This document shows, piece after piece, positions 36,492-39,727 of a stretch of 53,227 nt of DNA. Below the pieces are notes generated by a model, which worked only from the letters and a program-made list of their open reading frames with translations, was not told the origin of the DNA and did no database searches. The DNA is taken from positions 1-53,227 of the forward strand of contig JAHJBM010000069.1 in NCBI GenBank assembly GCA_018813505.1, read 5' to 3'. This DNA comes from Microcaldota archaeon (GTDB taxonomy: Archaea; Micrarchaeota; Micrarchaeia; Anstonellales; Bilamarchaeaceae). Both the position numbers and the translations under genes were made by a program. Positions within the stretch are counted from its first letter, which is position 1, and every line of letters begins with the position of its first letter.

Positions 36492-36660
36492 TAATAAAAT
36501 ATAATAATACGTTTACGACGTAAAAATACGATTCATTCGATCATAGACGTATATTATTTACGTTTATTGTCTTGGTTTCGGTTGTAATCCATAAACTGGA
36601 GTTTATACATCTACACAACGTTTTTAAATATTTTCCCAGAGACTCACTCAATCATATATC

Positions 36661-36777
36661 GATAGGGTACTCCCTATCCGACCGGAAGAGAATCTCTTTC
36701 GGGATGTTGGGCCTAAAACCACACCGCCATAGTTATTTTTCAATGGCCCAAATAGGCGGTGAAAAAAATTGAGGTGA
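36661..36777 (+). promoter_or_regulatory. structured 5' leader of S-layer mRNA: two hairpins, potential pseudoknot, Shine-Dalgarno
   Basis: GATAGGG-TACT-CCCTATC (36661-36678); CCGGAAGAG-aat-CTCTTTCGG (36682-36702); TTGGGCC(36707-36713)/GGCCCAA(36745-36751) interleaved with CACCGCC(36722-36728)/GGCGGTG(36755-36761); SD GAGGTGA 36771-36777. TATA-like TTTTTAAATA at about 36619. Confidence 0.75.
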
Positions 36778-36781
36778 ACAA

Positions 36782-39727
36782 ATGAAAGTGAACCTAAAGA
36801 AACTCGGAGCCATTGTTGCAGGAGCAACAATTTTGGCTAGTTCAGCTGCGTTTGCCGGACTTATGTTTGGTTCGACAACGTTGGTGGACGACAATGGAGC
36901 ACCAGTCGCTAAGGTCGTAATTGGATCTAATGCGGCTGCTTCAGACGGTGTAGCTGCAGCCCTTATCGCTACAAAACTTGCTAGCGCAGCTTATAAGAGC
37001 TCGACTGTAACGGCTGAAGTGTCTGGAGATGCTGTATGTGCAGCAGATGGATCTGATGGAACTGGTGGATGTGCAATTAGCAATGAAAAGGCAAAGTTGG
37101 AAATTACTGTGCCTGGTTCAACTGCTATGGGTACATGGACTGGTGAAAACCTTATCGGTGACCACTTGGACAGACAACTGTTAGACAGAGACTACAATGG
37201 TGCAGCTGCAGATGTAAATGATTCTGACAACGCATATACCATTGGTGGCTCAGATACAGTTGACACTGCAAATCCATTTACAGACGGAAACAGCAGCAAC
37301 TTGGGTCAGGATGAAATATTCTTGTACAAAGTTGGAGGCAGCCAATTCTCTCCATTTGCAGACCAAACTTTGACAGATTCAAAGTCTGGAAATACATATG
37401 TAGAGAAACAGGCATTGTGGCTTAAAGGTGATAACAGATTCGATACATCTAACGATGTTATCGTAGGTCGCTTGGAATACCTCGTCTACTCAATAAAGTT
37501 TGACGGTCCGGGCGGAAAAGAAATTGGTATCCCAACATGTACCGAGTCAAATGAAAATGACTATGGTTACTGTATTACAACAGATGGGGATATTGATGAT
37601 GCCACAGAAACAAACAGGCTTAAGGTCTACTTCCTCGGCGAGGAATGGATAATCAGTGATATGAACCCACCATCAACATCGAGCGGTTCAGAAATAACCA
37701 CTGAGAACATTCTTTATCCAGGCGGATCGATTAAACTTGCTAAGGAATCAATATCTGGTATCCTGAACCAAGGTGAATCACTACCTGTTGACGACCTCAA
37801 ATTCCAATTGGATGACCTTGAGGCTCACGGTGATACAACATCGGCCATTATATCTATTGTTGATGCAAATGGCAATGTTCTTGAACACGACACTGTGACT
37901 CCAGGAACAACTCAGGAATATACTATCAACGGTAAGGAATACAGATTCCACGTATACAAGGTTGCTCCAGGTTATACATTTGGTGCAAAGTGGGCTGAAG
38001 TAGCTGTTTTCGCAGAAGAATTGACTCTTGAAAGTGCTGAAGAACTCGATTCTGATGAGGATTCCAATCCAGAATACAAAGTATTGCTTGGATGGAAAAA
38101 CCTTGATGCACAAACCGATGATGGTGACAACACAGAACCTGAAAGAGATGATGTTGATTCATTAAGATCAATTCTCATCTACTCTGACACCATTGATGAT
38201 TTGGCAAGCGGTGGAGACAACAGCATGCAAGAGGGGGAATACATTCCATTGATACAGGATCCAGTGACCTGGAAACTGTACTACAATGGTCTTGATTTAA
38301 CCTCAAGCGACAAGGTAAGTCTGAAGTTTGAAATTAAGACTACTGCAAAAACCCTTAACGCAGATGACGGACCTGTGCTTAACACCGGTACAACTCAATC
38401 AAAGTGTTCTATAGAACCACCATATGTAAAAGTAACATCTGGTAACAGTGGTTCATCTGTCTTTGAAATGGACAGAGATGACACAACTGGTACAATGTCA
38501 GATGACGAGTTCATGGTGGCATTGAGTTCTGATGCTGGTTCAACAAACTATGCTGCAAGGTGCGATGCCAATGGTGATGGTGACTACACAGATATTACTG
38601 ATGTCAACATCACGGCTGGTTCAATTTTCATGAAACTTTCTCCGTCAAGTACGGATTATGGTTTCTCGAACTACACAGCTACTACGGTTGTCAGATACGA
38701 TGAGATAGGAGACGGATCCCATGCATTTGCACCTTCAGAAGGTGGAGCAATACTCATTGCAAATGAGGCAGATGTAGATGGTGATACGCAACCAGGTGAC
38801 AGTGCTCTTGGTGATATGTTGTTCAGTGCAACAAGAAACCAATGTGCAAGTACGTCCTGTGCCGAATTCTACTTTGCAATTGCAGAGAAGGCCGGTTCAG
38901 GTACATCAAACGGATATGTGGACTACTGGGTTTGGGGTATAGATCAAACTAACTCAGCATCGGCTGCAACATTCGATTTTGATTCGTACAACACAACAAG
39001 CCTTGTCATCACATCTGATGCAAATGAGATACTCTATGGACACGCAACAGTAAATGCACCTTCAGGAACTAGTGCAAATGAGTTCTATGGTGCAAGTGGA
39101 ACAAGAACTGGTCCAGTGAGTCCAGGCATGGAAATGGTCGAAGAAGATTATGTATCTGAAAGAGGTACACACTTCAAGTCAATCGATGCCGACTCAGTTG
39201 AATTCGATATGGCACATGAGCTAGCACATGCTCAGTGGTTCTTGGCTGCAGCAGATACAACTACAGCATCATCTAGCACAACAGTTGCTACGCTTGGTGA
39301 GGGTGAATCTGTAACAGTGAGTGGCGTAACGGTTAAGGTAGTTGAAATTACCGAGACTGTTGGTGCATGTAGTAGTTCTGGTGGTGCAGTAGCTTGTACA
39401 GCAGATATGAGCGATGTATCAGCAGTAATCATGCCAAACAACGTTGCCTCATTGGAAGTGGCTCAGCCATACGCTGGTAACTATGGTAACTTAGTTATCC
39501 TTGATACAGATGCAGTTGGTGTAAACACACTTGTTTCCGTTGGTGGTGACAAGGTAAACTCCGTTACTGCAAACTTGTTACAAGGATCTGCCGTAGACTG
39601 GTCTGCTGAGACAAAGGTTGTGCGAGAAGTAGTTCAGGGTTCAAAGATTGTTGTTGCAGGTAAGGATGCAAGCGACACTCTTGAAGCAGCTCAGGACTTC
39701 GTAAGCCAATTGCAGAGAGTTAACTGA
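36782..39727 (+). CDS. S-layer protein
   Basis: Signal peptide MKVNLKKLGAIVAGATILASSAAFAG, KVVIGSNAAASDGVAAALIATKLASAAY, and C-terminal NLVILDTDAVGVNTLVSVGGDKVNSVTANLLQ...VAGKDASDTLEAAQDFVSQL, typical of archaeal S-layer proteins. Confidence 0.9.
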   Translation: MKVNLKKLGAIVAGATILASSAAFAGLMFGSTTLVDDNGAPVAKVVIGSNAAASDGVAAALIATKLASAAYKSSTVTAEVSGDAVCAADGSDGTGGCAISNEKAKLEITVPGSTAMGTWTGENLIGDHLDRQLLDRDYNGAAADVNDSDNAYTIGGSDTVDTANPFTDGNSSNLGQDEIFLYKVGGSQFSPFADQTLTDSKSGNTYVEKQALWLKGDNRFDTSNDVIVGRLEYLVYSIKFDGPGGKEIGIPTCTESNENDYGYCITTDGDIDDATETNRLKVYFLGEEWIISDMNPPSTSSGSEITTENILYPGGSIKLAKESISGILNQGESLPVDDLKFQLDDLEAHGDTTSAIISIVDANGNVLEHDTVTPGTTQEYTINGKEYRFHVYKVAPGYTFGAKWAEVAVFAEELTLESAEELDSDEDSNPEYKVLLGWKNLDAQTDDGDNTEPERDDVDSLRSILIYSDTIDDLASGGDNSMQEGEYIPLIQDPVTWKLYYNGLDLTSSDKVSLKFEIKTTAKTLNADDGPVLNTGTTQSKCSIEPPYVKVTSGNSGSSVFEMDRDDTTGTMSDDEFMVALSSDAGSTNYAARCDANGDGDYTDITDVNITAGSIFMKLSPSSTDYGFSNYTATTVVRYDEIGDGSHAFAPSEGGAILIANEADVDGDTQPGDSALGDMLFSATRNQCASTSCAEFYFAIAEKAGSGTSNGYVDYWVWGIDQTNSASAATFDFDSYNTTSLVITSDANEILYGHATVNAPSGTSANEFYGASGTRTGPVSPGMEMVEEDYVSERGTHFKSIDADSVEFDMAHELAHAQWFLAAADTTTASSSTTVATLGEGESVTVSGVTVKVVEITETVGACSSSGGAVACTADMSDVSAVIMPNNVASLEVAQPYAGNYGNLVILDTDAVGVNTLVSVGGDKVNSVTANLLQGSAVDWSAETKVVREVVQGSKIVVAGKDASDTLEAAQDFVSQLQRVN

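Follow-up and report, generated by a model that had tools for sequence, protein, structure and literature searches.

A covarying pseudoknot precedes the S-layer gene in 12 families of one archaeal class

Why should the mRNA of an archaeal S-layer protein carry two perfect, interleaved pairings immediately ahead of its ribosome binding site, and what might such a structure do there? The question is raised by a 53,227-nt stretch of DNA from a Micrarchaeota archaeon (contig JAHJBM010000069.1), referred to below as the window. The sequences TTGGGCC/GGCCCAA and CACCGCC/GGCGGTG interleave in the order A-B-A′-B′ upstream of a Shine-Dalgarno (SD) sequence and the ATG at position 36782; both 7-bp pairings, their spacing, the SD and the start codon lie where the first-pass annotation had placed them. 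The features of the locus are as follows, the four stem strands being defined by sequence, comparison of leaders and covariation.

36592–36605, + strand: palindrome TAAACTGGAGTTTA, an element upstream of the promoter, at the DNA level and outside the RNA (sequence; related promoters)
36621–36630, + strand: TATA box TTTTTAAATA (sequence; spacing rule used for 50 leaders)
36661–36678, + strand: P1, 7-bp hairpin at the 5′ end (folding; sequences vary among leaders)
36682–36702, + strand: P2, second hairpin, 9 bp (folding and cross-leader hairpin survey)
36707–36713, + strand: 5′ strand of stem A, TTGGGCC
36714–36721, + strand: L1, A-rich linker of 8 nt (61% A across leaders)
36722–36728, + strand: 5′ strand of stem B, CACCGCC
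36729–36744, + strand: L2, 16 nt, with a conserved unpaired motif, consensus GNUAAUNNUUNU, here AUAGUUAUUUUU (cross-leader survey)
36745–36751, + strand: 3′ strand of stem A (A′), GGCCCAA
36755–36761, + strand: 3′ strand of stem B (B′), GGCGGTG
36771–36777, + strand: SD GAGGTGA, behind an A-rich spacer (invariant in the genus alignment)
36782–39727, + strand: S-layer protein gene, 981 aa, with a signal-peptide-like start MKVNLKKLGAIVAGATILASSAAFA (PF05124; PDB 9fsa match)

The identity of the downstream gene is supported by a match to the Pfam family S_layer_C (PF05124; 60.2 bits versus a cut-off of 23.9) and to the S-layer protein of PDB entry 9fsa (E = 2.6e-5). A transcription start downstream of 36713 would speak against a structured leader; the start predicted from the TATA box lies well upstream, at about 36651. 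In related promoters, TTTATAAACTNNAGTTTA starts 33 nt upstream of the TATA box, and this fixed spacing suggests a dedicated regulator site approximately three helical turns from the box, the palindrome TAAACTGGAGTTTA being the probable site of a putative regulator. TTTATAAA, the opening part of the palindrome, starts at precisely this 33-nt distance from the TATA box in 13 of 15 same-genus promoters. As a genome-wide regulator site the palindrome was rejected, given that it occurs at only four places in its own genome, below the reversed-pattern control.

The 130-nt leader of the window folds with z = -4.0, with P1 and P2 forming perfect or near-perfect hairpins upstream of the pseudoknot, and none of 200 dinucleotide shuffles reached its pseudoknot score; in the same kind of test, 50 out of 52 leaders with short loops gave p ≤ 0.01. 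The defined core of the element spans about 55 nt. Covariation among related S-layer leaders, which had been proposed as a check of the pairing, was strongly positive. It was assessed in two sets, 33 distinct leaders of the family and 59 distinct stem sets from 33 genera; in both, stems were registered by sequence anchors, loops were excluded and the shuffle test ignored the tree, which is unlikely to affect the conclusion because the margin is very large and the slid control low. In the larger set, compensatory double changes occur in 12 of the 13 base pairs, with 138 double-change cells against 42.7 expected (equalled by none of 500 shuffles) and a covariation score of 0.494 against 0.197 expected (slid controls, ≤ 0.10). 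In the family set, 12 of 15 pairs show double changes (0/500 shuffles), stem A appearing as GGACC/GGTCC, GGGGAC/GTCCCC or AGGGATC/GATCCCT and stem B as CCACC/GGTGG, CTGCC/GGCAG or CACTGTC/GACAGTG. When only the genus is considered, covariation is seen in stem B, the core of stem A being invariant. Two interleaved helices with compensatory changes constitute an RNA pseudoknot, and the leader almost certainly has a conserved RNA structure, as judged from sequence comparison. The idea of a long, structured, pseudoknotted leader on an S-layer gene is supported, both pairings being preserved in related leaders through compensatory changes.

How far does the structure extend among relatives? The S-layer gene is present in all 17 genomes of the genus examined, and 14 of these yielded 15 plainly homologous leaders, each with the A-B-A′-B′ arrangement. 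A first covariance model, built from the genus leaders with stem B as the sole structure, produced 30 matches at E ≤ 1e-4, all directly before an S-layer start and spread across the family. For the wider survey, we collected the DNA upstream of S-layer genes located by protein alignment, covering 84 genomes of the order and 303 of the class. Outside the family, 26 of the 37 order leaders examined contain the pseudoknot (families f2, f3, f5, f7, f8 and f11), and it recurs elsewhere in the class in f12, f13, f14, f16 and f17; in total, S-layer leaders of a single archaeal class share the pseudoknot across 12 families and 33 genera. The four arms are disjoint in all 68 leaders. In some species whole hairpins have been inserted into L1, L2 or L3, and both stems are nonetheless kept. 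No pseudoknot was found in leaders of f4, f6, f9 and f10, many of which have a TATA box near the ATG, or in the sampled leaders of f18–f21, f23 and f26. In three leaders of f19 and f18 (L174, L172 and L173) that lack the pseudoknot, other possible hairpins, maybe replacement elements, precede the SD. Since S-layer proteins are made without the element in f4, f6, f9, f10 and most of the remaining class, it is not essential for high expression generally.

The element also appears to be confined to one gene. A broader model, R2, was built from loop-trimmed sequences; its sensitivity is low and its results therefore bear on specificity only. Across 303 genomes, all 29 R2 matches at E ≤ 0.01 are at S-layer start codons and none is at any other gene; the genome of the window has a single match (E = 0.0019), the next being at E = 1.1. 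One element per genome is the rule, and most S-layer paralogues in the same genomes lack the leader, with most of those from the same genus scoring 0 for the pseudoknot. From these sequence searches, the element is apparently used on no gene other than that of the S-layer; occurring only at S-layer starts and once per genome, it would be a dedicated output element rather than part of a multi-gene regulon. Many genomes of the genus (G002, G003, G007, G008, G011 and G016) contain more than one S-layer copy or fragment, frequently truncated by a contig end, whose N- and C-termini closely resemble one another; the structured leader is on one copy only (two in G002). The pattern suggests one expressed copy accompanied by variants, which may reflect S-layer variation through recombination. 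A comparison with Rfam gave no match above the curated gathering cut-offs and, for 36560–36860, none even at E ≤ 1, which places the leader in no known family, and no description of an S-layer leader pseudoknot was found in the literature outside most subscription journals.

Besides the stems, two further parts of the leader are conserved. L2 begins, directly after the 5′ strand of stem B, with the 12-nt unpaired motif, which is kept in 33 genera; its genus-weighted conservation is 100% for T0 and A1, 97% for T6 and 95% for A2 and T9. Median loop lengths are 8 nt for L1, 17 nt for L2 (range 12–54) and 7 nt for L3, and the end of B′ is separated from the start codon by a median of 20 nt (range 13–63). 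With such an L2, the fold differs from the classical H-type, in which L2 is short or absent and the stems stack directly. At the other end, the first of one or two hairpins is located at the TATA-predicted start in every one of the 50 leaders whose upstream sequence was long enough (median offset 0, interquartile range -2 to +3), and 41 of these hairpins fold at z below -2; in species without P1, P2 takes the position at the predicted start.

Comparison of leaders gives the order of the module: 5′ hairpin or hairpins, the A-B-A′-B′ pseudoknot with the L2 motif, an A-rich spacer, a strong SD and the start codon. The reading that we favour, at about an even chance of being correct, is that the major S-layer mRNA carries in its leader a cis-acting RNA module dedicated to this one gene, in which the hairpins would protect and the pseudoknot would aid initiation. 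The 5′ hairpins may shield the end of the transcript from decay. At its median distance from the start codon, 20 nt, the folded pseudoknot would sit approximately where the mRNA leaves a bound small subunit, and there it could keep the SD single-stranded and help ribosome loading; the L2 motif may make a specific tertiary contact or one with the ribosome or a protein, and pseudoknot and loop together would present the SD to the ribosome or bind a factor. What is probably the most abundant protein of the cell surface would thereby be produced at a high and steady level.

The strongest competitor, to which we leave roughly a third of the probability, is a regulated sensor: the ligand of pseudoknot and L2 would be either a small molecule or a protein, such as an RNA-binding protein of the ribosome or one related to the envelope, and its binding would raise or lower S-layer translation, as in the rpsO and T4 gene 32 operators or in a small pseudoknot riboswitch. 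It retains this share because nothing points more strongly to a bound partner than the constant L2 motif: unpaired bases with little or no variation are typical of a binding site, the fold adjoins the SD, and a constitutive booster would have no obvious need for a near-invariant 12-nt loop. A related hint comes from the sister family f2, where 8 of 18 leaders, versus 0.33 expected, have a kink-turn signature in the 5′ hairpin, namely a C-stem, a YAT or GAT bulge and GA ... GA (for example, L129, L133, L134, L136, L139 and L146). On sequence grounds this hairpin is a likely L7Ae site on the S-layer mRNA, and in f2 the leader might plausibly exist in a protein-bound state, because L7Ae regulates archaeal mRNAs through kink-turn leaders (PMC5539422). 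However, none of the 35 leaders of the window's own family has the kink-turn, with its C-stem, 3-nt bulge and tandem G.A pairs; no conserved alternative pairing hides the SD; and occurrence on one gene per genome, always the same gene, is unusual for metabolite riboswitches. A bolder version, in which the leaders would form a new class of cis-regulatory RNA sensors in archaea, with pseudoknot and GNUAAUNNUUNU loop binding a ligand or protein that signals the condition of the cell envelope and setting S-layer translation in at least 12 families, we regard as tentative and less likely than not.

Another possibility is that the 5′ hairpin and the pseudoknot solely block decay, stopping 5′-3′ exonucleases of the aRNase J type, and take no direct part in initiation. 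The position of the 5′-terminal hairpin, locked to the predicted start, and the retention of the pseudoknot despite hairpin insertions in all three loops fit this reading, but it leaves unexplained both the distance of the knot from the start codon (13–63 nt) and the L2 motif, and we consider it improbable.

Far less probable is a translational switch, as proposed in the first-pass annotation, in which the stems would be alternatives or CACC would pair with the SD. Nested folding programs cannot draw pseudoknots; in the nested minimum-energy fold of the window leader, stems A and B do not appear together and CACC pairs with GGTG of the SD. Within 36729–36777 of that fold, the U-rich L2 and CACC pair with the A-rich spacer and the SD, which is probably incidental. 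The idea of alternative stems loses ground on several counts: the arms never overlap, covariation in the competing B/A′ hairpin is no higher than in shuffles, and the combined stacking energies of A and B beat the best nested core fold in 51–60 of 66 leaders for pseudoknot penalties of 7–12 kcal/mol, a comparison that is indicative only, the penalty being a rough constant. The 3-nt L3 between A′ and B′ in the window leader is tight for a 7-bp stem A, and opening the two outer U-A pairs would give 5 nt across 5 bp. We take it that both stems probably form together on the same RNA. CACC is present in some members only, the 5′ strand of stem B elsewhere being AGCCGCC, TGTCGCC or TTGCCGTC; the SD is inside neither stem in any leader, and its predicted accessibility barely shifts when the four arms are blocked, as they would be in the pseudoknot (median from 0.40 to 0.43). 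A simple SD switch is therefore set aside. Nor does the leader resemble a riboswitch expression platform, with mutually exclusive structures and the SD hidden in one state: no covarying alternative helix was found. Finally, two-arm repeats can arise by chance within one sequence, but the view that these are chance or DNA-level inverted repeats with no RNA function is refuted by the covariation data, together with the single strand orientation, the constant place before the SD and the shuffle tests, and is left with a vanishingly small probability.

To our knowledge, few cis-acting structured RNAs have been described from archaea, and the element bears on the means by which these organisms produce a single surface protein so abundantly. 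With the strongest kind of comparative support, a core of modest size and a clear target gene, its function is directly testable with reporters; natural variants are available in species that lost the element, in loop insertions and in a sister family with the kink-turn, and the aligned leaders could serve at once as the seed of a new RNA family. Among known systems, the Methanosarcina slmA1 S-layer mRNA has a conserved 159-nt 5′ UTR with predicted secondary structure (PMC3361143). It shares with the window an archaeal S-layer gene, a long, conserved, structured leader and one dominant paralogue, but belongs to another archaeal lineage, and the part of that report at hand describes neither pseudoknot nor covariation; the two were compared by description rather than sequence. 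The SLH motif is likewise a candidate structured RNA, upstream of S-layer-homology genes, yet it is bacterial (Synergistaceae, Firmicutes) and associated with SLH-domain genes (PMC6429828); the window leader has no match among the Rfam families, which may or may not include the SLH motif. The L7Ae kink-turn leaders are archaeal cis-acting leader structures whose signature is seen in the f2 5′ hairpin (PMC5539422, PMC6298567), whereas the window's family lacks the kink-turn and the pseudoknot is a separate element. The rpsO (uS15) operators of E. coli and mycobacteria contain a 5′ UTR pseudoknot, at the initiation region or immediately upstream of it, that is needed for initiation or regulation (PMC10931766), a placement like that of the S-layer element; there, however, a ribosomal protein gene is autoregulated by its own product, whereas an S-layer protein, being exported, would hardly bind its own mRNA, and the restriction of the R2 matches to S-layer starts sets the element apart from ribosomal protein operators. 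The phage T4 gene 32 leader resembles it in having a pseudoknot, of the H-type, followed by unstructured RNA up to the SD, but that pseudoknot lies 67 nt upstream of the start codon and binds gp32 (PMC3014915). Pseudoknots near the SD are already known from rpsO and T4 gene 32, and the S-layer leader element is a new family of such structures.
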